Below are positions 838 to 18,342 of a stretch of DNA of 45,697 bases, piece by piece. The notes under the pieces are model-generated. The model was not told the origin of the DNA. It was given only the letters and a program-made list of their open reading frames with translations, and made no database searches. The DNA comes from Candidatus Scalindua sp. SCAELEC01 (GTDB lineage: Bacteria > Planctomycetota > Brocadiia > Brocadiales > Scalinduaceae), in contig SHMT01000034.1 of assembly GCA_004282745.1 (NCBI GenBank), positions 1 through 45,697 of the forward strand. Direction: 5' to 3'. Position numbers and translations under genes: made by a program. Each line of letters begins with the position of its first letter. Positions within the stretch are counted from its first letter, which is position 1.

Positions 838-3033
838 ATGATGAAAAAAATATTACTCTGCGGCAAAAACGGATTCTCCCTCATCGAGATCATGATTACG
901 ATGACCATCGTAGCGGTTCTGGGAGGCATTGCAACGGTCGCCATACTCAAAGAACGTAGTGCATTTTACCAGACTGCATGTATGAGCAACCTGAGACAGA
1001 TATCTCAGGGCATGCAGATCTACTACAACGAAAACGGGAAATTTCCAAAGGATGGCTACCCCGATGACGGCAATGACCCCCTCCCCCTCTCTACCGAACT
1101 TGCCAACTATGTACCAGAAAAGAGTCTCTTTATCTGCCCCGAAGACGACGATCCTGTCACTACCGCCAACTTTGCAAGCTATGACCCCTATTACGTTGCA
1201 CGTAAGGACCCCGACGATGTTGACAAACTCCTCATCGGATGTCCCCACCATAGAGAGGCGAAAAAGGCGACAAACCTCCTCGGCGCAGGTACAACAAATA
1301 TCACCAATGTTGATACCGTACTCGTAAACGGCCAGGAGATACCTCCCGATGGCACATCTGCCGAGAGGGTCATAAGCAACGTAAACGATGAAATGACCTT
1401 TGTTGATGGAAGCAGAGTAAAGATCACCAATTCCCAGGCAGGGTATGGGACATACCTCGTCCAGTCAGTGCGACTAGCAGACGGAACCCTCTACAGTATC
1501 ATACGGGTCGAGGACGAGGGGACAATCGATGTCCAGGTTACGGCCGGCTCCAAATTCGAGGTAGTAACACCGAGTGCCATTATCGGGGTACGGGGTACCC
1601 GGTTTACGGTCCAGACCCTTAATGCCAACAACGCCACGACCGTTACCATGATAACGGGAACGGTTGATGTCATGGACCGCGAAACTGGCACAGTGATAAA
1701 ATTATCCATCGACGGTACAACAACTGCCACCATTGATGATCTAGATGATGGCGTAGACAATGATGGTGATGGATATACGGGCAACCAGGGAGATTGTGAC
1801 GATGCCAATCCAATTGTCCATCCGGGAGCAGGTGAGATACTTGATAACGGAATAGACGATGACTGTAATCCTGCCACTCCTGACAGCTCGCAGGATATCG
1901 ATAGTGATGGAGATGGGTTTACCGGGAACCAGGGGGACTGTGATGACGGCAATCCAAACGTCAACCCCGGTGTGGCTGAGATAGCTGATAACGGGATTGA
2001 CGATGACTGTAATCCGGCTACCCCAGATAGCTCCTCTGATATCGATAATGACGGTGACGGGTTTACCGAGAACCAGGGGGATTGTGACGATGCAGATCCG
2101 GCAATTAATCCAGGAGCTACGGAGGTATTTGATGGCGTAGATAATAACTGTGACGGGCAGACCGATGAAGGATTTACGGATACTGATGGTGATGGTTATA
2201 CACTTGAAGTTGATGACTGTAACGATGCAGATCCGGCAATTAACCCGGGAGCTACGGAGGTGTTTGATGGCGTAGATAATAACTGTGACGGGCAGACTGA
2301 TGAAGGATTTACGGATGCCGATGGTGATGGTTATACACTTGAAGTTGATGACTGTAACGATGCTGATGCCTCTATTAACCCGGGTGCTGCGGAGGTGTTT
2401 GATGGCGTAGATAACAACTGTGACGGCCAGACCGATGAAGGATTTACGGATGCCGATGGTGATGGATTTGCCCTTGAGGTTGATGATTGTGATGACACCA
2501 ATCCAAACGTTAATTCAGGAATGGCTGAGATAGCTGATAACGGGATTGACGATGACTGTAATCCTGCTACCCCGGATAGCAGCTCAGGTGATCAGGCACT
2601 AATAGACTTTATCAATAACCCTGCAAATAGTTCAACTGCCGTTGCAAATTATCTTGTGAGCGAATCGCCACTATCAGATGCCGTACTGATAGCAATGATA
2701 AACCGAAGTCCTTCATTATCTTCCGGTGACAATGAGAATATCCTAAACTTAGCGAGCAATAACCCACTATCTGATAATGTACTTATTGCAGCAATAAATG
2801 AAGGTACAATAATGAACTCCTTTGAGTGGACCATGCAAAACAATAGTCCATTATCAGAAAATGTTCTTAATTCAATGATAAATAATGATACACTCATGAC
2901 ATCCAGAGAGTATAAAGATATCCTTGTTCTTAATTCTCCATTGCCACTGAATATTTTAGGCCAGGTCATTGCCGGTACACCCTCACTGAAAACAAATGAC
3001 CTAACTAAGGTTTTAGCAGCGAATGGGATGTAA
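838..3033 (+). CDS. Pseudopilin-FecR-MopE repeat fusion protein
   Basis: A 731-residue protein with an unusual domain order. Residues 1-12 are a class III prepilin leader cut after Gly12, followed by FSLIE with Glu at +5 and a hydrophobic helix. A pseudopilin-like stretch follows to about 160. Residues about 165-290 look like a FecR domain (TPSAIIGVRGTRFTV, then TGTVDV). Residues about 302-586 are six MopE-type putative metal-binding repeats with DxDGDG, DCDD or DCND, and DNNCDGQTDEG or DDDCNPATPD signatures, rich in Asp and probably binding calcium or another metal. The last about 145 residues are four further repeats built on SPLSxNVL. The start is ATG ATG at 838/841 with a weak ribosome site. 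It probably acts as a minor or tip pseudopilin exposed outside the inner membrane; that role is inferred from the leader. Confidence 0.75.
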   Translation: MMKKILLCGKNGFSLIEIMITMTIVAVLGGIATVAILKERSAFYQTACMSNLRQISQGMQIYYNENGKFPKDGYPDDGNDPLPLSTELANYVPEKSLFICPEDDDPVTTANFASYDPYYVARKDPDDVDKLLIGCPHHREAKKATNLLGAGTTNITNVDTVLVNGQEIPPDGTSAERVISNVNDEMTFVDGSRVKITNSQAGYGTYLVQSVRLADGTLYSIIRVEDEGTIDVQVTAGSKFEVVTPSAIIGVRGTRFTVQTLNANNATTVTMITGTVDVMDRETGTVIKLSIDGTTTATIDDLDDGVDNDGDGYTGNQGDCDDANPIVHPGAGEILDNGIDDDCNPATPDSSQDIDSDGDGFTGNQGDCDDGNPNVNPGVAEIADNGIDDDCNPATPDSSSDIDNDGDGFTENQGDCDDADPAINPGATEVFDGVDNNCDGQTDEGFTDTDGDGYTLEVDDCNDADPAINPGATEVFDGVDNNCDGQTDEGFTDADGDGYTLEVDDCNDADASINPGAAEVFDGVDNNCDGQTDEGFTDADGDGFALEVDDCDDTNPNVNSGMAEIADNGIDDDCNPATPDSSSGDQALIDFINNPANSSTAVANYLVSESPLSDAVLIAMINRSPSLSSGDNENILNLASNNPLSDNVLIAAINEGTIMNSFEWTMQNNSPLSENVLNSMINNDTLMTSREYKDILVLNSPLPLNILGQVIAGTPSLKTNDLTKVLAANGM
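2089..2493 (+). repeat. Three tandem 135-nt units coding for MopE repeats
   Basis: Units start at 2089, 2224 and 2359, exactly 135 nt (45 codons) apart, and are nearly identical at the nucleotide level (GATGCAGATCCGGCAATTAA in the first two). The protein unit carries INPGA, EVFDGVDNNCDGQTDEG and FTDxDGDGY. Such identity points to recent duplication and likely copy-number variation. Confidence 0.85.
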
Positions 3034-3622: not shown

Positions 3623-4252
3623 ATGGATATCGGTACCTTACTGGGAATACAAGTTAAAGGATTAGAAACACAACTAACAACCGAACTCATCGGAATGGAG
3701 GAAGGAGAATATTTAATACTCAAGATGCCTCCTCTACGTGAGCTGGGACTTACGGCTACCATATTATACAGAGGAAATGATATTTCGGTTAAATACAAAC
3801 ATAAGGGTACTATCTTTGGTTTCAGTTCTCACATACTTGGCTTTATTACCAATCCGGTACAACTCATCTTTGTTGATTACCCAAGCAAGTTTGAGAGCTT
3901 TGGCCTTCAAAGTAATAAAAGAATTCCGTGCCATCTTCATGCTCATGTGAAAATTTCAGACAATTTAATAGAAGGCTCCATTACCGATATAAGCGCAAGC
4001 GGGTGTCATTTTGTTGCGGATATTCAAAATATTGAACATTACCTTAAATCAATAGAGACAGACAGGGAAATCAGTATTACCTTCAAGGTGCCGGTTTTGG
4101 AGAAAAAACTAACCATAACATCAGTACAGAAGAACATACGCAAAAATGCATCAGATATCGGAATTGGTATAGAATTCATTAATATGGATATTGACACGAA
4201 AGCAATTCTTTCAGGCTCTCTTTTAAAAATGAAAAACAACTCAAATGAATAA
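3623..4252 (+). CDS. YcgR-like PilZ domain protein
   Basis: A 209-residue soluble protein. Residues 1-90 resemble the YcgR N-terminal beta-barrel (GMEEGEYLILKMP at about 24-36), and residues about 95-200 are a PilZ domain. The second PilZ motif D/NxSxxG is present as DISASG (122-127). The first motif, usually RxxxR, is degenerate: Arg100 is kept but the second Arg is His104. PilZ proteins bind cyclic di-GMP and act on flagella, pili or secretion ATPases. Here it stands between a pseudopilin and a GGDEF protein and upstream of two MshEN ATPases, so a role in the pseudopilus machine is likely. A clear AGGAG lies about 12 nt upstream of the ATG. Binding is uncertain because of His104. Confidence 0.75.
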   Translation: MDIGTLLGIQVKGLETQLTTELIGMEEGEYLILKMPPLRELGLTATILYRGNDISVKYKHKGTIFGFSSHILGFITNPVQLIFVDYPSKFESFGLQSNKRIPCHLHAHVKISDNLIEGSITDISASGCHFVADIQNIEHYLKSIETDREISITFKVPVLEKKLTITSVQKNIRKNASDIGIGIEFINMDIDTKAILSGSLLKMKNNSNE

Positions 4253-5003: not shown

Positions 5004-5921
5004 ATGAATCATAAAGTTCTTTTTGTAGATGACGAACCCAACATATTAATGTCATACAACCGTATGTTGAAAAAACTGTTCTGCATCGAGACTGCCCTTG
5101 GAGGTGAACAGGGGTTGAGAAAAGTCAATAACGGTGGGGCTTTTTCGGTTGTTGTTTCCGACCTCCAAATGCCCGTCATGAATGGGCTCCAGTTCCTCTC
5201 CTCTGTTAAGGGGATTATGCCTGATTGTGCATGCATAATCCTTACCGGTAAAGCTGATCTCAATAAGGCCATAGAGGCCGTAAACCAGGGCAACATATTT
5301 CGGTTTCTGACCAAACCCTGCGAGCCAGAGACACTCATTGCAGCAATTAATGATGGAATTGAATATAATAACCAATCCCTGCTGGAAAGAGAACTCAATA
5401 AAAAGAATCTGGTATTGGCTATAACAGATGCACTTACGGGATGCTTAAACCGTACCTATATGGATGCTCATCTCACCAACGAGATCAAGAGAGCGAGGAG
5501 ATATAGGCATTCGTTTTCCGTTATCATGTGTGATATAGATGATTTCAAAAAAATTAACGATACTTACGGACACGTAGCGGGAGATGAGGTACTAAAACTT
5601 TTTGCTCAAAGCATAAAGAGCACTATTAGAAAAGACCTCGATTGGCTTGTTCGCTACGGAGGTGAGGAGTTCCTGCTTGTGCTTCCAGAGATAGGAATTG
5701 AGGGAGCCACCATTTTAGCAGAAAGGCTCTGCAAAGATCTTGCTCAAAAAACTATAAAAATTAAAGATCAAGAGATACAGATTACGGCAAGTTTTGGTCT
5801 GGCAGGGTTTGCCCATGACACGCCACAGGAAAAAACCTCACCTGAATTTCTGATTACGGCAGCGGATGCTTTACTTTACCAGGCAAAAACTCAGGGGAAA
5901 AACAGGGTTGTCGTGCAGTAA
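5004..5921 (+). CDS. Receiver-GGDEF diguanylate cyclase
   Basis: A 305-residue response regulator. The receiver domain (1-120) has Asp9/Asp10, phospho-acceptor Asp53 and Lys104. The GGDEF domain (about 135-305) has TDALTGCLNR, DIDDFKKINDTYGH and the active site GGEEF at 219-223, so synthesis of cyclic di-GMP from GTP is expected. The inhibitory I-site, normally RxxD five residues before the motif, reads KDLD here (210-213), so product feedback may be weak. A GGAG lies about 9 nt before the ATG. The gene lies between a PilZ protein and two secretion ATPases with MshEN domains, which are natural targets for its product. The partner kinase is not adjacent. Confidence 0.9.
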   Translation: MNHKVLFVDDEPNILMSYNRMLKKLFCIETALGGEQGLRKVNNGGAFSVVVSDLQMPVMNGLQFLSSVKGIMPDCACIILTGKADLNKAIEAVNQGNIFRFLTKPCEPETLIAAINDGIEYNNQSLLERELNKKNLVLAITDALTGCLNRTYMDAHLTNEIKRARRYRHSFSVIMCDIDDFKKINDTYGHVAGDEVLKLFAQSIKSTIRKDLDWLVRYGGEEFLLVLPEIGIEGATILAERLCKDLAQKTIKIKDQEIQITASFGLAGFAHDTPQEKTSPEFLITAADALLYQAKTQGKNRVVVQ

Positions 5922-6400: not shown

Positions 6401-8104
6401 TTGAACAATATGAATACTACACGAAAAGCAATAGGACAGTTACTAAAAGAAAAGGGATTTATTACTCAAGAACAGTTAGATAACGCATTGGAGCAACAGA
6501 AGATGCTGTCTACCCGATTGGGTGATGTAATAGTAAAGATGGGTTTTGCCCATCCTGAACAAATTACCAATTGTCTCGCGGAACAATTTGATTATAAAGT
6601 TGTTGATCCTTTAGCTATCGCTATTCCCGATGACGTTATCAACATTACTACCAAAGATATCGTTAAGCAGTATAATATCATCCCTATTGCCAGACAAAAT
6701 GGTCTTCTTATTGTAGCAACAAGTGACCCACTCGACATAAACATCCAGGAAAACTTGCGTTTTATCCTCGATTATGACATAGAATGCGTACTGGCAACGA
6801 GAGATAATATTGAGAACGCCATAAAGAAATATTATGAAAAAGAGACGGTCTCCTTATTAGGTAACATATGTAATGATCTCAAGGGGTTAGCACTCAAAGC
6901 CTCCGAAAACAACAACTTCGGAACAGAGGATCCGGAAAATTCTGAATCACCTATTGTGAGACTTGTCATGCACATTTTTAAAGAGGCCGTTAAGATGCGG
7001 ACCAGCGACATACATATTGAACCGTTGTCAACGAATATTAATATACGATTCAGGATTGATGGTGTCTGTCATGATATGCATACCATTACAAAAAACGTAC
7101 ATGAGGCATTGGTTTGCAGGATAAAGATACTTGCAAATATGGACATTACTGAAACAAGAAAACCTCAAGATGGGAGAATCTCAGCAAATGTCAGTGGGAA
7201 ACAGACGGACATCAGGGTGAGTACCATACCATCCACATGTGGTGAAAGTATCACTATGAGGTTATTAGATAAATCATCGTCACTCATTAAACTGAAGAGT
7301 GTCGGCCTCTCAGAAAATGATCATAATAACATCAAGGACCTATTAAGCAGGCCGAATGGTATCATTTTGATCACCGGTCCTACCGGTAGTGGAAAAACAA
7401 CCACACTATATGCAGCCATAAACGAGATTAACCCCAAAGAAAACAAAATAATTACCGTAGAAGATCCTATAGAATATGACCTGAGAGGAATTAATCAGTG
7501 TGAGGTCAAAGAGAAGGTAGGTCTGACTTTTCCTAAAATTCTCCGTTCTATGCTTCGACAGGACCCCAACGTCATAGTCGTTGGTGAAATTCGTGATATT
7601 GAGACAGCAGAAATTGCCGTTTCAACATCATTAACAGGACACCTTGTATTAAGCACACTCCATACAAATGATGCACCATCTGCGATAACAAGGCTGACCG
7701 AAATGGGGATAAAACCATTTCTCTTATCAGCATCCGTTAACGCAATCTTGGCTCAACGTCTTGTGAGAGTTATCTGTCCTTCATGTAAAACACCACAAAC
7801 AGAAAACAGAGAGAGCTTAAACGATCTGGGGTTAAACAGAGAGGATATTGAAGATTTTGTATCTTTCCACGGGCAAGGATGTAACTATTGTAACAACACT
7901 GGCTATTTTGGAAGAGTGGGGATATTTGAGTTTCTCTCTTTAACGCCTGAATTAAAGGAAGCAATTCACAGAAAAGTGCCAACAAACGAATTAAGAAAGA
8001 TCGCCCATTCCGAAGGAATGACATCGCTAAAGGATGATGGATTGAGATTGGTCCGTGCCGGGATTACGACCCTGGAAGAGTTATTAAGAATATCAAACGA
8101 TTAA
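6401..8104 (+). CDS. GspE/PilB-type secretion ATPase with MshEN domain (first of two)
   Basis: A 567-residue hexameric ATPase expected to power pseudopilus assembly from the cytoplasmic side. The N-terminus is an MshEN domain with the canonical layout of two 24-residue motifs (10-33 and 39-62) split by a 5-residue spacer. The second is RLGDVIVKMG...LAEQ with Arg39 and Gln62; the first has Ala10 where Arg is usual. MshEN domains bind cyclic di-GMP. The ATPase core has Walker A GPTGSGKT at 326-333, an Asp box (VEDPIEYDL), Walker B (VIVVGEIRD), a His box (TGHLVLSTLHTND), and a tetracysteine zinc site C459/C462 and C494/C497. The frame opens with TTG at 6401; ATG at 6410 is an alternative start. 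It is followed 9 bp later by a second ATPase gene. Confidence 0.9.
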   Translation: MNNMNTTRKAIGQLLKEKGFITQEQLDNALEQQKMLSTRLGDVIVKMGFAHPEQITNCLAEQFDYKVVDPLAIAIPDDVINITTKDIVKQYNIIPIARQNGLLIVATSDPLDINIQENLRFILDYDIECVLATRDNIENAIKKYYEKETVSLLGNICNDLKGLALKASENNNFGTEDPENSESPIVRLVMHIFKEAVKMRTSDIHIEPLSTNINIRFRIDGVCHDMHTITKNVHEALVCRIKILANMDITETRKPQDGRISANVSGKQTDIRVSTIPSTCGESITMRLLDKSSSLIKLKSVGLSENDHNNIKDLLSRPNGIILITGPTGSGKTTTLYAAINEINPKENKIITVEDPIEYDLRGINQCEVKEKVGLTFPKILRSMLRQDPNVIVVGEIRDIETAEIAVSTSLTGHLVLSTLHTNDAPSAITRLTEMGIKPFLLSASVNAILAQRLVRVICPSCKTPQTENRESLNDLGLNREDIEDFVSFHGQGCNYCNNTGYFGRVGIFEFLSLTPELKEAIHRKVPTNELRKIAHSEGMTSLKDDGLRLVRAGITTLEELLRISND

Positions 8105-8113
8105 GGAATAGTT

Positions 8114-9826
8114 ATGAGCATAAAGGAAGTACGAAAAAAGTTATTTGGACAGATCTTACTGGAAAAGAGACTGGTAAATGAAAAACAGATCGAGAGTGCG
8201 CTCGAAATGCAGCAGATGAACGGTAAATCCTTGGGCAAAACATTAGTAGAGTCTGGTGCCACCACACATTCATTAATACTTGAAGCTTTAAGTGATTATT
8301 TGAACATGGATATTATTGACTTAAAAAAAGTCGAACTGGAACCGGATATTATTGAAAAGATTCCCCCTTCAGTTGCACAGCTTTATCGCGTTCTTCCAAT
8401 AGCATACGATGGGAATACCCTTACACTAGCACAGGAAGAACCGCTCAATATTGAGCAGATGGATGACCTAAGATTCTTGCTCAAGTATGACCTTAAGGCT
8501 GTTCTGGTAGAACAAGAGTTGATCTCAGACTGTATGGATAAATACTATCCGGGGCAGCATGAATCCATTGAAGCACTCATGGATACATTTGAGAACTATA
8601 CTCCTGAAGAAGAGAATAGGAACACTACCGAATCTTCAGAAATTGGCAATCTTGAAAATTTGGTCGATAATGCTCCAGTAAAAAGTTTTGTCAATTTAAT
8701 ACTGTTGCAGGCAATTTCAGATAAGGCAAGCGACATCCATTTTGAAACCTTTGAAAATGAGTTCCATGTTCGTTTCAGAGTTGATGGTATGCTGCTCGAT
8801 GAGATACCTGTGCCACCACAATTTGCAAATGGCATTGTTTCAAGACTCAAAGTTATGGGAAACATGGATATAGCAGAAAAGAGAGTGCCACAAGATGGTC
8901 ATGCGCATGTAACCATAAGGGGCCATCACGTTGATATTCGCATCTCCACACTACCTACCAAACATGGAGAGAGCATCGTTCTGAGGATACTGGACAAGAA
9001 TTCAGTTTCACTCGATCTTACTGAATTGGGATTAAATTACCAAGATCTTAACACAATTAAACATTTGATGAAGAAAACATACGGCATTATCTTAGTAACC
9101 GGTCCAACAGGCTCGGGTAAAACGACAACATTATACGCCTCTCTAAATTTTGTACGTAGCTCAGGCAAAAAAATTATTACTACCGAAGATCCTGTAGAAT
9201 ACGATATTGATGGTATCACGCAGATCCAAATCCATTCAGAAATTGGCGTTACATTTGCCAATAGCCTGAGAGCGATATTAAGACAAGATCCCGACATAAT
9301 ACTGATGGGTGAGATCAGAGATCTAGAAACAGTTGAAGTCGCAATGCATGCATCCCTTACCGGCCATCTCGTTTTAAGTACCCTACATACAAACGATGCA
9401 CCTTCGACGATAACAAGGTTAATCAATATGGGTGTAAAACCATACTTAATAACTGCTTCCCTTACGGCTGCCATAAATCAGCGGTTGGTGAGAAAACTAT
9501 GCCCCGAATGCAGAGAGGAATATGTACCGGACAAAAATATTATCAACAAACTTCGGATCCCTGAATCTGTCTTAGGGGAAAAGCACTTTTATCGAGAAAG
9601 AGGTTGCAGCAAATGTAACAATACCGGTTACAAGGGAAGATTGTCTATCCTTGAAATAATGACGATTAACGATGAGATCTGTTCCCACATCATTCAACAA
9701 TCGTCAACAGAAACAATAAGGGAAGTTGCGAGAAGGAACGGTATGAGAACTTTGTTAGAGAGCGGGCTTAACGCAATCTATAATGGTCAGACTACAATAA
9801 AAGAGGTTATGAGGGAGGTAGCCTAG
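8114..9826 (+). CDS. GspE/PilB-type secretion ATPase (second of two)
   Basis: A 570-residue paralogue of the preceding gene, with AAGGA before its ATG and only 9 bp between them, so they are cotranscribed. The ATPase core is complete: GPTGSGKT at 330-337, TEDPVEYDI, IILMGEIRD, TGHLVLSTLHTND, and zinc cysteines 463/466 and 498/501. The N-terminal MshEN-like domain keeps the length and spacing of the motifs but has Ser39 for the key Arg and Tyr62 for the terminal Gln, so cyclic di-GMP binding is doubtful. It may form mixed hexamers with the first ATPase or be a dedicated alternative motor (inference). Confidence 0.9.
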   Translation: MSIKEVRKKLFGQILLEKRLVNEKQIESALEMQQMNGKSLGKTLVESGATTHSLILEALSDYLNMDIIDLKKVELEPDIIEKIPPSVAQLYRVLPIAYDGNTLTLAQEEPLNIEQMDDLRFLLKYDLKAVLVEQELISDCMDKYYPGQHESIEALMDTFENYTPEEENRNTTESSEIGNLENLVDNAPVKSFVNLILLQAISDKASDIHFETFENEFHVRFRVDGMLLDEIPVPPQFANGIVSRLKVMGNMDIAEKRVPQDGHAHVTIRGHHVDIRISTLPTKHGESIVLRILDKNSVSLDLTELGLNYQDLNTIKHLMKKTYGIILVTGPTGSGKTTTLYASLNFVRSSGKKIITTEDPVEYDIDGITQIQIHSEIGVTFANSLRAILRQDPDIILMGEIRDLETVEVAMHASLTGHLVLSTLHTNDAPSTITRLINMGVKPYLITASLTAAINQRLVRKLCPECREEYVPDKNIINKLRIPESVLGEKHFYRERGCSKCNNTGYKGRLSILEIMTINDEICSHIIQQSSTETIREVARRNGMRTLLESGLNAIYNGQTTIKEVMREVA

Positions 9827-10226: not shown

Positions 10227-11471
10227 ATGCCAACTTTCAGATTTAAAGCAATAGACGAAAAAGGCCTCTTGATCAAAGATTGGGTTGAAGCGGGATCAAA
10301 TGAAGAGGCAATCAAAAAGATTGGTGAGAGGGGGTTCTTTCTCACCAATATAAAGGAGTCCAAATCCCTTAAGAAAAACGGTACCAGAAACAGGAAAAAG
10401 CAAAAATATCCAACAGCATTATTATTAAGTAGGATAAATCCAAAAGAGATAGACTCCTTCACAAGAGAGTTATCAACACTCCAGGAAGCGGGAATATCAA
10501 TTGTAGAGAGTTTGATTATTATTGAATCTGAGCAGAAAAAAGGATTATTAAAAAACATCCTCGGTCAAATGGTAAGGGATATTCAGGAGGGTGCTAATCT
10601 TTCAGGATCAATGCAGAAGCACCCGAAAGCATTCGACAAACTCTATATCAATACCATAAAAGCGGGAGAGATTGGGGGTGCACTTGATGTAATTCTTGAT
10701 AGACTGGCAAATTATCGAGAAAAAATCCGGGCACTCAAACTAAAAATAATAAGTGCCATAACCTACCCCCTCTCTGTTATTTTCGTTTCAGGTGCAATAA
10801 TAACAGCGATTATGATGTTCATAATTCCCAAATTTTCAAAGATGTTTGAAGAGTTAGATATCTCGCTTCCATGGATTACGGTAATGATCATTTGCATGAG
10901 CGACTTGATGATTACCCATTGGTACGCAATCTTTGGATCTCCTATCGCTTTTTTTGTCATATTTAAGCTTAGTATGAGAATAAAAAGATGCAGGTTGATA
11001 GTGGATAAGATAAAACTCAAACTACCCATTATTGGTAGCATCATAGGCAAGTCTGTTATTTCTAAGTTTGTCAGAACTCTTGCAACCTTAACATCAAGTG
11101 GTGTTCCCATTTTACAGTCTTTAGATAATGTGAAAGATGCTACAGGAAATACAGCATTAAGAAACGCAATCGAATATATGCATAATAAAATTCGTGACGG
11201 AGAAAAAATTGCAAAGACTCTGAGAGATACAAAGATATGCAGACCCACACTAGTCAGTATGATAGAAATTGGAGAAAGATCTGGAAAATTAGATATGATG
11301 CTTGCCAAAGCTGCCGATAATTATGATAAAGAAATTGATGCCGCCGTAACGTCTATGATAAGTTTGATCGAACCCGTTATGGTCACCTTTATCGGTTGTG
11401 CTATTGGCACAATAGTGTTGGCTCTCTTCATGCCTCTTATTAAACTCATGAGCAGTATGGGTACGTTTTAA
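10227..11471 (+). CDS. gspF: GspF/PilC-type inner-membrane platform protein
   Basis: A 414-residue membrane protein. Residues 1-60 are the short N-terminal region (PTFRFKAIDEKG). Two T2SSF domains follow at about 75-200 and 275-400, marked by FTRELSTLQEAGISIVESL and FVRTLATLTSSGVPILQSL. Three hydrophobic segments are visible (about 178-203, 215-250 and 380-405). The family forms the membrane platform on which the GspE-type ATPase works and pseudopilins are assembled. Length and layout are normal. It is preceded by the spacer module and followed 16 bp later by a pseudopilin gene. Confidence 0.93.
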   Translation: MPTFRFKAIDEKGLLIKDWVEAGSNEEAIKKIGERGFFLTNIKESKSLKKNGTRNRKKQKYPTALLLSRINPKEIDSFTRELSTLQEAGISIVESLIIIESEQKKGLLKNILGQMVRDIQEGANLSGSMQKHPKAFDKLYINTIKAGEIGGALDVILDRLANYREKIRALKLKIISAITYPLSVIFVSGAIITAIMMFIIPKFSKMFEELDISLPWITVMIICMSDLMITHWYAIFGSPIAFFVIFKLSMRIKRCRLIVDKIKLKLPIIGSIIGKSVISKFVRTLATLTSSGVPILQSLDNVKDATGNTALRNAIEYMHNKIRDGEKIAKTLRDTKICRPTLVSMIEIGERSGKLDMMLAKAADNYDKEIDAAVTSMISLIEPVMVTFIGCAIGTIVLALFMPLIKLMSSMGTF

Positions 11472-11487: not shown

Positions 11488-12273
11488 ATGATAAAATCAG
11501 ATTTTAGAACAAAATTCATCAAAAGTTTAAGGAACCACTCACAATCAGAAAAAATTTCTACCGGAGAAAATTGGAAATATGAGATGCCCTTTAATGAGAC
11601 GATATCCTCTAAGAGAGAAAAAGAGTCGCAGGATTTGGAACAACTTGCAGCAAATCCTTTCCAGCCGTTTAAAAATAATTCTCCAACCGGGTTTACGCTC
11701 GTAGAGTTGCTCATTGTTCTTGCAATTATTATGGTACTCGTTGGAATTACCGTACCTGTTGTAAGTTCTATACAGACTAACGCAAAGAGTGGTGTCACAA
11801 CGGCTCAGATAAGTCAATTGGGGCTAGCACTGAAACAATTTGAATGTGACTTTGGTTTTTTTCCACCGGACAGTTATACAACAGCAGATACAGCACTCTC
11901 TCTTGGCAATATAGAGATACCTCGCGATGACGATCTCAACACGAGCCTGAAATGCTCTGTTTTCTTTCTTGGTAGTAGATTTACCTTCAGTTCAGCAAGT
12001 TTTAATGAAACATTCGGTCCATATATTGAATTCAAGAGATCACAAATTGAAGGATCAGGAGTCGAATTTGCCACAGACACTGCAACTCTCAGTATAGAAG
12101 GCATTAACGGAACCAGACAGGTCTTCCAGTATAAAGACCCCTTTGGTAGTTATTATTCTTATAATAGTAGCTCTCCCTCTCACAATATCGCCTCGTTTGA
12201 TATATATTCATTCGGGCCTGACAAGGTAGACGATTCAGGAACAAGCACAAGTGATGACATTACAAACTGGTAA
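11488..12273 (+). CDS. GspG-like pseudopilin with a very long leader
   Basis: A 261-residue protein. The prepilin cut site is TG-FTLVE with cleavage after Gly68, followed by a hydrophobic helix. From the first ATG the leader would be 68 residues, charged and hydrophilic, against the usual 5-25. A second in-frame ATG (residue 33, nt 11584) would give 36, still long. The C-terminus SFGPDKVDDSGTSTSDDITN resembles the calcium-binding end of major pseudopilin GspG (..GPDG..DDI.NW). It overlaps the next pseudopilin gene by 23 bp. It is expected to be inserted in the inner membrane and cut by a prepilin peptidase encoded elsewhere. Confidence 0.85.
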   Translation: MIKSDFRTKFIKSLRNHSQSEKISTGENWKYEMPFNETISSKREKESQDLEQLAANPFQPFKNNSPTGFTLVELLIVLAIIMVLVGITVPVVSSIQTNAKSGVTTAQISQLGLALKQFECDFGFFPPDSYTTADTALSLGNIEIPRDDDLNTSLKCSVFFLGSRFTFSSASFNETFGPYIEFKRSQIEGSGVEFATDTATLSIEGINGTRQVFQYKDPFGSYYSYNSSSPSHNIASFDIYSFGPDKVDDSGTSTSDDITNW

Positions 12274-12700
12274 TAGGGGATTTACCCTAACAGAACTCTT
12301 AGTGGTTATCAGCATAATCCTCGTAATTACTGCATCCATCTTGACGGTCGTTCCTCGTTTAAACAAAGACACTCAGGTAAAGGCTTCAAAGACAATGATC
12401 GACCGTCTGGAGATGGCGATTGAGGACTATTACGGTGATAACAGATCCTATCCTTCCGGAGATATAGAAAATCTCAAGACTCTGTTGCAACCATCTGATA
12501 CAACCCTAAAACAGTATATCGAGTTTAATGATCGTGAACTGAGCGGTGATACTATTATTGATGGTTGGGGTAATTCTCTCGTATATATTTCTCCTGGAAA
12601 CCAAAATACCGTTTCATACGATCTATATTCTCCAGGCTCAGATGGAACATCTACAACTTCCGGAAGTGACATTGACGACATAAACAATTGGAGTAGATAA
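12251..12700 (+). CDS. gspG: GspG-like major pseudopilin
   Basis: A 149-residue pseudopilin with the leader MMTLQTGNRG cut before FTLTE, and a hydrophobic helix to about residue 32. The globular part has the GspG hallmarks DGWGNSLVYISPG and YDLYSPGSDG, and ends in DIDDINNW. Length and motifs fit the major pseudopilin. The start is GTG at 12251 directly followed by ATG at 12254; either is possible. It overlaps the upstream pseudopilin, implying translational coupling. Confidence 0.88.
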   Translation: MMTLQTGNRGFTLTELLVVISIILVITASILTVVPRLNKDTQVKASKTMIDRLEMAIEDYYGDNRSYPSGDIENLKTLLQPSDTTLKQYIEFNDRELSGDTIIDGWGNSLVYISPGNQNTVSYDLYSPGSDGTSTTSGSDIDDINNWSR

Positions 12701-12994: not shown

Positions 12995-13468
12995 TTGAAA
13001 TCACTCATAAATACTAAACATGCTTTTACACTCGTAGAAATGCTTGTCGTAATCGCAATCATCGTTTTAATAGGTGTAGTGACCATACCATCAATTACAC
13101 CGTTCCTGAAAGGACAAAGTTTGAGTAAAGGTGCTCGCATTGTTCAAGCAAAGGCTCTGGCAGCAAGGACAATGGCCATTAATTCCAGAAAAACACGATG
13201 GCTGGTTTTTGACTCGACGTACTCAAAACTGTCAATCAAAGACGAGAATAATAGCGAATTAGGAAGAGAAGAGTTCCTTCCAGACAACATTGAATTTGAT
13301 ACGAGTGCGGGAACATGGATTACGGGTACAAGCACCATTAGCTTCGATCCGAATGGTTCTGCAGATATTTCAGCCTTTAGCACAGATACGATTACTATTA
13401 AAAACAAGCAAGGTAACTCAAAAAACCTGAGAATAATTGGCTATACGGGTCAAATTTCAAGTAATTAG
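12995..13468 (+). CDS. GspH/FimT-like minor pseudopilin
   Basis: A 157-residue protein with leader KHA-FTLVEM, a hydrophobic helix, and the GspH/FimT pattern of a conserved stretch after the helix (ARIVQAKALAARTMAINSRKTRWLVFD) followed by beta-rich sequence with ISFDPNGSAD near the end. The residue before the cut is Ala10 rather than Gly. No in-frame ATG or GTG exists between the upstream TGA (12968) and the leader, so TTG at 12995 is taken as the start. The gene ends Ser-Asn-TAG, and the stop codon merges into a repeat element. Confidence 0.8.
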   Translation: MKSLINTKHAFTLVEMLVVIAIIVLIGVVTIPSITPFLKGQSLSKGARIVQAKALAARTMAINSRKTRWLVFDSTYSKLSIKDENNSELGREEFLPDNIEFDTSAGTWITGTSTISFDPNGSADISAFSTDTITIKNKQGNSKNLRIIGYTGQISSN

Positions 13469-13950: not shown

Positions 13951-14637
13951 ATTTCAACAATACGTCAAAAAATAAGACCGCTCCAATACTCTCAAGCGGG
14001 CTTCACTCTTATTGAAATTGGAATAGCCATTTTCATACTTGGTGTAGTGTTTACCGGTATCTTGGCCATATTTCCCATTGGAATTGAGTCCACAAAGAGG
14101 GTGGCCCAACATTCCAATGCCTCTATCCTCAGCGAATTAGCACTATCGGAACTGAAAACAGTCGATATGGTAGGAGTTGTCGGAACAATGACTGCCGGTC
14201 AATCTTATACGTATCCAGATATAAGCGATATCAATAAAGATAAACCTTTTGAAGATTCGGCAGGGAACACAGTATTTGCACAATATTCGTGGCAGGCGGT
14301 GTTAAAAAGTATAAATACTACTGACGCAAACCTGATCAGGGCACAAATTTCTATTTTTATGAACGGTAATCCCTCTGAATTTGGAACGGGAACAGCTAAC
14401 TTCACACAAGACAGCGCAAATGTACAATACACAACACCATTACCTTCAAAACTCACCTCCAAACAATACATACGGGAACAAAATGAAGCCTTCTGGTATA
14501 GGATAGATACGATAGACACCAATACTTCAACCATTGTCTTAGAAGGGCCATACTTAGGAAGCTCTGGATCAGGCCTTGCATTTTCTACGACAGACGATAT
14601 TATTGATATCTTTGAAACCATGTTGGCGAAACATTAA
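13951..14637 (+). CDS. GspI/PilV-like minor pseudopilin, non-canonical start
   Basis: The frame reads a complete prepilin leader, ISTIRQKIRPLQYSQAG-FTLIE, followed by the helix IGIAIFILGVVFTGILAIFP, then a globular domain ending at 14637 (about 228 residues). The first standard start codon, GTG at 14047, lies inside the membrane helix and would remove the leader, so it cannot be right for a pseudopilin. ATT at 13951 with AAGGG 8 nt upstream is the best candidate, giving a 17-residue leader. A lost start codon is the alternative. The order H-like, I-like, J-like, K-like and the YSWQAVLK stretch support GspI. The 480-bp spacer upstream is filled by two inverted-repeat elements. Confidence 0.7.
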   Translation: MSTIRQKIRPLQYSQAGFTLIEIGIAIFILGVVFTGILAIFPIGIESTKRVAQHSNASILSELALSELKTVDMVGVVGTMTAGQSYTYPDISDINKDKPFEDSAGNTVFAQYSWQAVLKSINTTDANLIRAQISIFMNGNPSEFGTGTANFTQDSANVQYTTPLPSKLTSKQYIREQNEAFWYRIDTIDTNTSTIVLEGPYLGSSGSGLAFSTTDDIIDIFETMLAKH

Positions 14638-15227: not shown

Positions 15228-15243
15228 AAGTTTGGACCTTGTC

Positions 15244-15906
15244 ATGAATGAGGGAATTCCAATAGAGAAAAGAGATGACTTAAATGAATCCGCCTTCACC
15301 CTGGTAGAACTGGTTGTAGCGGTATCTTTGGCTTCAATAATTATCTTCATTACGGTAACACTATTTAATCAGGCAAGCACGGTCTTCTCAGAAGCTGATG
15401 CATGCAACGAGGTATATCAAAATGCAAGATCTGTTTTTGACATAATAAAAAGAGACATTTCTGGTTCAACCTTAAATGCAAATAATGAATTGGTAAAATC
15501 GTATGACAATGTTGATCCAAATGACTACCTTGTGATTAGTGCAAAAGGGGGCAGCGACATACTCACACTCTTATCAAGTGCGCCCAATAATGCGGGAAAA
15601 CCCGTTGCCTTAATTACCTATTTCCTGACCACCAACAATATTCTGAAAAAAGCTGAGATCACCCTAGACACTACACTCAATACCAATATGTCAACTTTTG
15701 ATCCTGATACGGTAACCGCCTCCGAACTTGGATTCAATATTGAATCGCTACAATTTAGATATCTCGATATGGATGGAACATGGCATAACTCATGGGATAG
15801 TACAACAAAAAGATATGTACCTGATGCGATAGAAGTAAACATGACCATCTCTGACATGCGTAATAGGTACTCAAGGGAATTTACACGGATTCATTCGATA
15901 CCATAA
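15244..15906 (+). CDS. GspJ-like minor pseudopilin
   Basis: About 220 residues from ATG at 15244 (TTG at 15232 is also open). The leader ends ESA and is cut before FTLVELVVAVSLASI, again with Ala rather than Gly before the cut. The globular region has ARSVFDIIKRDISGS and LQFRYLDMDGTWHNSW, the pattern of GspJ/PilW pseudopilins (a bulky WxxSW near the middle, then a statement of amphipathic strands). It is 6 bp upstream of the gspK-like gene, as in classical T2SS operons where J precedes K. It probably forms part of the pseudopilus tip. Confidence 0.8.
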   Translation: MNEGIPIEKRDDLNESAFTLVELVVAVSLASIIIFITVTLFNQASTVFSEADACNEVYQNARSVFDIIKRDISGSTLNANNELVKSYDNVDPNDYLVISAKGGSDILTLLSSAPNNAGKPVALITYFLTTNNILKKAEITLDTTLNTNMSTFDPDTVTASELGFNIESLQFRYLDMDGTWHNSWDSTTKRYVPDAIEVNMTISDMRNRYSREFTRIHSIP

Positions 15907-15912
15907 CTACAG

Positions 15913-18342
15913 ATGGGAAAAAAAGTGAGCAACGTAAAAGGAGAAGAGGGATATATCCTGATCATCATCGTTGGTGTGTTTACCATCCTCTCATTGATGG
16001 CGATTACGTTTGCCACGCTATCAAGGATAGAGACTAAGGTCACGAGAAATTACTCTGACTCGATAAAATGTGAGGCAGTTGCAAGAGCAGGCCTGGAACA
16101 TGCATTGTATATCCTCCGGCAAGATAAATTTGGAGACGACGATATTCCCTATAACAACGATAACGGTGATGAAGACTATGACTGGTCAGGCGAGACATGG
16201 ATGCCTGGGGGTAGTAATTTTTCAGGTACCGATTTTGATAACGATGGAGATGGCACGAACGACTCTAAATGGATATACTTTCCGGCCACAGTATCGACCT
16301 CAGACGTCAGACTTCCAGGAAAACTACGCGCCAGATATGCCATATTAATAACGGACGACAGAGAGGCCCGGATTAATATTAATGCCACAGGGAACAAGGC
16401 CGGTAGCGGCAATACGCATACCTCTAATGAAGGGTGGTCTACATTCGAGATCGATCTATCCAAATTAATTGAGCAGGCACCGGGTCTAAACTCAACAGAT
16501 GGAGACAACATTGCAAGTGATATCATAGACACAAAACTGGGAGTTGACCTGAAACCCGGTACCAGTACAGTAAATGACAATTCAGGAATAACTCCTGATC
16601 CTCAAACAGACGGTATTGATAATGACGGAGATTGGGACCTGGCCACAGACGATTCCAATAATAATGGGATACCAGATTCTGGTGAGACAAACGTTGATGA
16701 GGTAGATAACTCCGAATCCATAGATGAACCAAATGAATTCAATCCGATTTATCCACCCGGTGATGATAGACCGTTCGGTCTCCTTTCAGAAGCTGAAATC
16801 ATGGGTACCTCAACATTCACAAGCAGACTCGAAACAATTTTCAACAGTAGAGGTGTCTCACAAAGTGACCAAACATCTCTTAATGAGTGGTTCACGACTT
16901 GCTCTGCAGACACCATCGTTACCCCACCGTATCAACTCGATAGCGGGACATCTACAACCATGTTAAATGTGAATACCCTTATAACAAATGAAGGTGCATA
17001 CACAAATACCGGCATCTATGATCCTGACAAACAGGTGGAGATGGTGAGGGATGTTCTCGATGCAGGAGGGATAACTGGTATTTCAGGTACATCGGGTTAT
17101 GTTGAACGTCATCAACTAGCTGTCAATACAAAGGACTTCGTCGATTCTGACTCTGCTGTGACGATATATGATGACGGTATAAATAAATACTACGGTATTG
17201 AACGAACTCCCTATATAAATGAAGTGGAAGCAGAGGTAAATGCTGCTGTTGCATCTGGTATGGGTAAATTTATCGAACTGTTTAACCCATACGATACGGC
17301 TATTAGCATAACAAACTGGACAATTACGGGCACATCTATGCCTACTGTTACCCTGAGTGGAACGATTAATGCACAAGACTACCATGTTATTGCAGATGAC
17401 TCAGCTGCATATGTAACATTTGCTTATGAAGGCGGAACTCCTCCAGATCAAACTGACCTCAATATTAATATGCTCACTCCCGCAGGCGAAGTTTTAACCT
17501 TGGCAGATACAAGTGGCACTGTTCAGAAGACACATTACGGTCAGGCTGATACTACGACGAACACGAGACAGGTAAATGATCCAAGGCCAACACCATTAAC
17601 GGACACAGATGGAACACCCAACGTAGATGCATCAATGCCCTGGCGCTGGACAACAACATCGGAAACCGCCGGTGAGGAAAATGGTAGTTTTGATCCTACT
17701 GTTGGTGGTGATGGTTGGGAAAATACCACACCAACATGGCCATTCAGTTTTCTTGTAGCTAACAGGATATTTTCAAATAAAGGGTATGTAGGTTTTATTC
17801 ATACTGGACGTCAGTGGTCTAGTTTTAAAGTTGATCAGTTTATTACCTATCCGAACGTACTAGAATACCTTACCATTTCAGATCCATCAATGGACGGTAT
17901 TGATAATGATGGAGATGGTGACAGTGATTCTTCGGATACCGGTTCACAGAGTGGTGATATACACGGGAAAGAGTACCGTATTCCCGGTTTGATAAATGTT
18001 AATACCGCATCGTCGGAGGTATTGCAGTCACTCCCAAATATAGATTCTACCATAGCAAATGCGATTGAAGGTAGCATAGCCAAACCATTTACGAACATAG
18101 GGGATTTAGTTGTCAAGGTTACTCAAATTACCGATACCGGTAATAAGTGGGAGAGAGAAAAGAGATTTCGGTCAATCTCAAATCTCATTACGACACGTTC
18201 AAACGTCTTTACGGTCTATATTACTGCGCAAGTTACGAATGATTCAGAAACTGACATCTTCGCTGAAAGAAAAATCCTGGCAATTGTTGATCGATCTCTT
18301 GATCCGATTAAGATCAGGTACTTCCGTTGGATAACGAAATAA
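15913..18342 (+). CDS. GspK-like pseudopilin with inserted lamin-tail-like domain
   Basis: An 809-residue protein, more than twice the usual GspK (about 320). The leader is cut after Gly13 before YILIIIVGVFTILS, and as in GspK there is no Glu at +5. Known GspK features are the RAGLEHALYILRQ stretch, DDREARININATG, and the helix-hairpin-helix region RIPGLINVNTASSEVLQSLP (about 689-735). Unusual parts are two Asp-rich loops, DGIDNDGDWD at 233 and DGIDNDGDGD at 661, and between them (about 449-565) a stretch starting GKFIELFNPYDTAISITNW that resembles a lamin tail domain (LTD). GspK caps the pseudopilus tip; the extra domain may bind a substrate or surface ligand (inference). Confidence 0.82.
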   Translation: MGKKVSNVKGEEGYILIIIVGVFTILSLMAITFATLSRIETKVTRNYSDSIKCEAVARAGLEHALYILRQDKFGDDDIPYNNDNGDEDYDWSGETWMPGGSNFSGTDFDNDGDGTNDSKWIYFPATVSTSDVRLPGKLRARYAILITDDREARININATGNKAGSGNTHTSNEGWSTFEIDLSKLIEQAPGLNSTDGDNIASDIIDTKLGVDLKPGTSTVNDNSGITPDPQTDGIDNDGDWDLATDDSNNNGIPDSGETNVDEVDNSESIDEPNEFNPIYPPGDDRPFGLLSEAEIMGTSTFTSRLETIFNSRGVSQSDQTSLNEWFTTCSADTIVTPPYQLDSGTSTTMLNVNTLITNEGAYTNTGIYDPDKQVEMVRDVLDAGGITGISGTSGYVERHQLAVNTKDFVDSDSAVTIYDDGINKYYGIERTPYINEVEAEVNAAVASGMGKFIELFNPYDTAISITNWTITGTSMPTVTLSGTINAQDYHVIADDSAAYVTFAYEGGTPPDQTDLNINMLTPAGEVLTLADTSGTVQKTHYGQADTTTNTRQVNDPRPTPLTDTDGTPNVDASMPWRWTTTSETAGEENGSFDPTVGGDGWENTTPTWPFSFLVANRIFSNKGYVGFIHTGRQWSSFKVDQFITYPNVLEYLTISDPSMDGIDNDGDGDSDSSDTGSQSGDIHGKEYRIPGLINVNTASSEVLQSLPNIDSTIANAIEGSIAKPFTNIGDLVVKVTQITDTGNKWEREKRFRSISNLITTRSNVFTVYITAQVTNDSETDIFAERKILAIVDRSLDPIKIRYFRWITK

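Follow-up and report, generated by a model that had tools for sequence, protein, structure and literature searches.

Two adjacent genes in the window, the whole 45,697-nucleotide stretch that was analysed, encode the motor ATPases E1 and E2, ancient paralogues that would both serve as assembly ATPases of one type II secretion-like machine of the type IV filament class. Judged by its residues, the complete binding site for c-di-GMP is kept by one partner in some lineages and by the other elsewhere, that is, it has switched. The reading we prefer, to which we give about an even chance, is that E1, with a full predicted site in its MshEN domain, is the operon's main c-di-GMP-responsive motor, and that E2, derived from a motor that elsewhere in the phylum has an invariant site, has an altered half-site for the second guanine (Gua2) and would be the weaker binder. 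Two motors with different c-di-GMP thresholds would then share one GspF platform, binding of the ligand presumably altering motor activity.

E1 (6401..8104, + strand) is an MshEN plus T2SSE motor ATPase of 567 amino acids with a TTG start; an alternative ATG start is found at position 6410. E2 (8114..9826, + strand; 570 amino acids) has the same two domains and is the orthologue of the phylum-wide motor with the invariant site. Both pass the Pfam cut-off for MshEN (23.1 bits), scoring 66.2 bits for E1 and 66.4 bits for E2, and the T2SSE scores are 437 and 456 bits. As the preliminary description had noted, each protein carries two 24-residue motifs with a 5-residue spacer: residues 10-62 of E1 (6428..6586, + strand) read AIGQLLKEKGFITQEQLDNALEQQ, KMLST and RLGDVIVKMGFAHPEQITNCLAEQ, and those of E2 (8141..8299, + strand) read LFGQILLEKRLVNEKQIESALEMQ, QMNGK and SLGKTLVESGATTHSLILEALSDY, the codon positions being reckoned from the ORF start in both cases. 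Its statement that the catalytic cores are intact is also borne out: both proteins have the Lys of Walker A, the Glu of Walker B and that of the Asp box, the His box, and the tetracysteine of four zinc ligands. This set of GspE/PilB catalytic residues is likewise kept in all of the 121 aligned sequences (57/57 E1, 64/64 E2). The window lies on contig C78 of a 4.59 Mb Candidatus Scalindua-type metagenome-assembled genome, that of an ammonium-oxidising planctomycete; among named relatives the closest is a Candidatus Scalindua contig, which has the same gene order and an E2 that is 88% identical.

The two motor genes head an operon whose type II secretion content includes a single GspF/PilC platform protein (10227..11471; PF00482). 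This is followed, all on the + strand, by two GspG-like pseudopilins (11488..12273 and 12251..12700; each PF08334 + PF07963), a GspH-like pseudopilin (12995..13468; PF12019 + PF07963), a conserved protein in the GspI position without a Pfam hit (14047..14637), a GspJ-like pseudopilin (15232..15906; PF11612) and an 809-residue protein with a lamin-tail domain (PF00932) in the GspK position (15913..18342). In the first GspG-like gene the prepilin signature lies within the ORF, and the true start is probably downstream. GspF, G, G, H and J are recognized by Pfam; the proteins in the GspI and GspK positions lack hits to those families, and the latter far exceeds the usual GspK length. No secretin was found within the operon, and two are located elsewhere in the window's genome.

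Upstream of E1 are a YcgR-like PilZ protein (3623..4252, + strand; PF12945 + PF07238) and a receiver-GGDEF diguanylate cyclase (5004..5921, + strand), one of 10 GGDEF domains in the genome. Read by eye, the GGEEF motif of this cyclase is intact and its inhibitory-site Arg is replaced by Lys. Linkage of the PilZ and cyclase genes to the motor pair is confined to the window's genus, and we have rejected it as a trait of the family. An Rfam search of the window gave no hit to a c-di-GMP riboswitch. Upstream of the operon, positions 838-3033 encode a 731-residue protein that combines a prepilin signature with a FecR domain and six metal-binding repeats of the MopE type; genes related to it lie near the pair in most of the Scalinduaceae loci examined.

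In MshE, the backbone amides of Gly3 and its neighbour grip each guanine, Gln24 contacts ribose and phosphate, and each base is stacked on by three leucines. In the numbering of E1, which is used throughout, the core contacts of that protein are complete (G12, Q33, R39, G41, Q62, plus D109 of the C-subdomain); both motifs have Gly3 (G12, G41) and Gln24 (Q33, Q62), with Ile at some of the hydrophobic positions. The sole departure at a key position is Ala at position 1 of motif I (A10), where the consensus is Arg, Lys or Leu. E2 retains G12, Q33 and G41, deviates at F11, R19, I26, S39 and Y62, the last of these costing it the second Gln24, and has Glu at the position of MshE Asp108. The preliminary description gave the motif II residues correctly (R39 and Q62 in E1, S39 and Y62 in E2); it overlooked the missing motif I arginine of E1 and the differences of E2 at F11 and R19.

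Residue 39, on which that description had partly relied, was rejected as a diagnostic of the site; it varies freely in E2 relatives holding all four polar contacts. At position 1 of the motifs, where R, K or L is expected, E1 has Ala and Arg and E2 has Leu and Ser; residue 39 is a poor guide because proven c-di-GMP binders carry K, L or P at this position. The glycines and glutamines are more telling. Two of the E2 changes, F11 (L11 to F) and Y62 (Q62 to Y), both fall in the Gua2 half-site, and among E2 proteins of the window's order the mean pairwise identity is 0.90 in the first-guanine (Gua1) half-site versus 0.67 in Gua2. No difference in fold sets E1 apart from E2: AlphaFold models of the N-domains (pLDDT 91 and 90) have the same fold and the same short first helix, and share as best structural matches c-di-GMP-bound MshE (5HTL) and bound PilF GSPII-B. 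Both models also match the PilB-PilZ complexes 7LKM, 7LKN and 7LKO.

The pair is old and nearly phylum-wide. In a FastTree phylogeny of 140 sequences, E1 forms one clade (support 99) and E2 another (100), and the two are sisters (96). E1 and E2 are 39% identical to each other, and each is 46-52% identical to its orthologues in family f5. A recent or strain-specific tandem duplication, which would have undone the earlier proposal, is rejected on the separate clades, the synteny and an E1-E2 identity below that between orthologues. Across 392 planctomycete genomes surveyed at strict thresholds, E2 is found in 301 and E1 in 301, counts that are approximate, as some hits at the E1 threshold are E2 and the reverse may hold. 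At 37 loci outside the window's order the arrangement is E1-PilT-E2 in 26 and E1 adjoining E2 in 5, with E2 alone in 5 and the remaining locus cut by a contig end; four of the five E2-only genomes have a strong E1 relative elsewhere, and the fifth is ambiguous. An E1-PilT-E2-GspF cassette is present in most of the planctomycetes sampled, and from the tree and the locus order together it follows that the adjacency in the window is the old pair minus the intervening PilT gene. PilT/PilU-like genes sit elsewhere in genomes of the window's order. In the window's own genome, as in several others of the order, they form a tandem apart from the motor pair (contig C30, L152:7242-9469).

To compare sites we set a rule of our own from the published contacts, an intact site having Gly3, Gln24 and hydrophobic residues at positions 2, 17 and 21 in both motifs. 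Outside the window's order the site is intact in 35/37 E2 and 9/30 E1 proteins. Within the order E2 fails the rule in 28/28, in 27 of them at residue 62 alone. This residue is Tyr, His or Phe in all 28 and Gln in 37/37 outside, and because it splits so cleanly the contrast between E1 and E2 exceeds chance. E1 is intact in 12/15 Scalinduaceae (family f1, a name inferred from its inclusion of a Scalindua record), all 12 of which also have D109, and in 0/12 sampled members of f5 (probably Brocadiaceae) and f4, the order's two other pair-bearing families, where Gly3 has mostly become Glu. On catalytic-domain trees, 3 changes account for residue 62 of E2 and 9 for the loss of the E1 core; the former fits a single change where the order arose, with later changes from Tyr to His and Phe.

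G12, Q33, G41 and Q62 are the only invariant positions of the N-subdomain in E2 outside the window's order (37/37), with a permutation P printed as 0.0000 from 20,000 randomly drawn sets of four positions. In E2 of the window's order, all 28 sequences retain G12 and Q33, and 27/28 retain G41 (P = 0.005). Tests of this random-position kind ignore shared ancestry, and conserved glycines are favoured generally. The E1 proteins of f5 and f4 serve as an internal control, the same contacts being eroded there (P = 0.52 for the four contacts). On this pattern of residues E2 outside the window's order is a conserved sensor, and we surmise that in most of the Planctomycetota it probably acts as a c-di-GMP receptor.

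The window's own genome has a second E1-E2-GspF pair (contig C14:69669-73073, L027), which adjoins PilX-like and GspH-like minor pilin genes and a gene for a PA14-domain protein. Both of its sites are altered, E1 having Asp for Gly41 and E2 Tyr62. The remaining two MshEN ATPases (C9 and C31) also lack some core residues. Of the genome's six MshEN motors, only E1 of the window has a complete site under the intact-site rules.

From its residues, E1 very probably binds c-di-GMP. The preliminary description had proposed one responsive and one insensitive motor, and the first part of this agrees with the conserved, lineage-structured difference between the sites and with the core contacts kept by E1 of the Scalinduaceae; the word insensitive does not suit an E2 that descends from the phylum's conserved sensor and retains G12, Q33 and G41. 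An altered and probably weaker site describes this protein better than a blind motor does. The Q218E change in PilF binds at 460 nM versus 6 nM, 77-fold weaker, and binding disappears only in the double Gln mutant (PMC11731258); because the single change still leaves binding at 460 nM, a weakened E2 is likelier than a blind one. That E2 is fully blind and E1 alone senses, in separate or mixed hexamers, as was suggested earlier, seems to us doubtful. The loss of Q62 in 28/28 E2 proteins of the order and the further changes in the window's copy speak for it, as does Thermus PilF GSPII-A (S39, R62, H33), a proven non-binder (PMC12002112). Yet G12, Q33 and G41 stay fixed across the order's E2, unlike the eroded E1 of f5 and f4, and the PilF single mutant binds in the sub-micromolar range. 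The weaker-site reading must itself contend with the five E2 deviations taken together (F11, R19, I26, S39, Y62), with the Ala of E1 motif I, which falls outside the extended R/K/L consensus, with a PilF GSPII-A construct in which Ser39 and A41 together abolished binding (PMC12002112), with a fold that is the same for E1 and E2 in the AlphaFold models, and with the fact that the order-wide E2 change counts as one evolutionary event. G12, Q33 and G41 could have been kept in E2 for packing or for a partner, though they are dispensable in the E1 of relatives.

It is unlikely that neither motor is governed by c-di-GMP, E1 failing without a basic residue in motif I and the site residues persisting for folding or for a partner such as a PilZ adaptor of the kind seen in Xanthomonas PilB-PilZ. 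A10 of E1, the PilZ gene upstream and the match of the N-domain models to the PilB-PilZ complexes are consistent with this view. However, altering Arg9 of MshE lowers binding by no more than about fivefold (PMC5013675), binding by PilF GSPII-B needs no arginine, and the contacts are not needed for the fold, because E1 of other families has freely lost them. That the second half-site of E2 was retuned and not weakened, so as to take a different nucleotide or cyclic dinucleotide, we consider quite improbable. The changes do cluster in Gua2 (L11 to F, Q62 to an aromatic residue) beside a Gua1 that is 90% uniform, and V. cholerae MshEN binds cGAMP weakly; but the Asp that contacts the guanine amino group (MshE Asp108 position) is present in 20/28 E2 proteins of the order, which favours guanine.

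Parts of this arrangement have known counterparts. Vibrio cholerae MshE (5HTL) likewise fuses the two-motif c-di-GMP fold to a T2SSE motor; it is a single motor, and it differs from the present pair, in which E1 has no motif I Arg and E2 has neither R39 nor Q62. In Thermus thermophilus PilF (GSPII-A, B and C), MshEN modules of both the intact and the degenerate sort occur within a single motor system, and GSPII-A shares S39 with E2, but its modules lie on one polypeptide whereas E1 and E2 are two separate motors. Xanthomonas XpsE is a secretion ATPase with a degenerate MshEN domain whose c-di-GMP contacts are lost; it lacks both glycines and many cluster residues, whereas E2 retains both glycines and Q33. 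PilT and PilU, each homohexameric according to the title of the source (PMC6821130), are paralogous motors acting jointly on one pilus; they drive retraction, whereas E1 and E2 are of the assembly type. Acinetobacter baylyi PilB and TfpB are two divergent extension ATPases of one type IV pilus, one of them selectively regulated by CpiA, in a paper whose text mentions neither c-di-GMP nor MshEN (PMC8213720). That system is gammaproteobacterial and, unlike the E1-E2 pair, has tfpB outside the pilB-pilC neighbourhood.

Two-motor pili such as PilB/TfpB are already known, as are MshEN receptors and degenerate forms of the domain; the protein kinds are familiar, and the pair with its site swap looks undescribed. 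Literature on tandem GspE, planctomycete PilB/PilT and anammox c-di-GMP, with most subscription journals outside its scope, contained no account of the pair, and within the same scope no phylum-wide paired cassette with the intact site in differing partners was found. For the Planctomycetota, the literature searched gave no account of motors of the E1/E2 type.

We tentatively advance a wider proposal, which is possible though some way short of probable: the planctomycete two-motor cassette passed c-di-GMP sensing between its partners, with E2 as the sensor phylum-wide, and with a full E1 site beside an aromatic E2 half-site in Scalinduaceae, giving a two-threshold or two-ligand pair on one platform. 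If true, the cassette would be a natural experiment in which a pair of motors within the same machine divide one shared signal, and it would make testable the control of type IV filament machines by c-di-GMP through the choice of motor as opposed to on/off switching.
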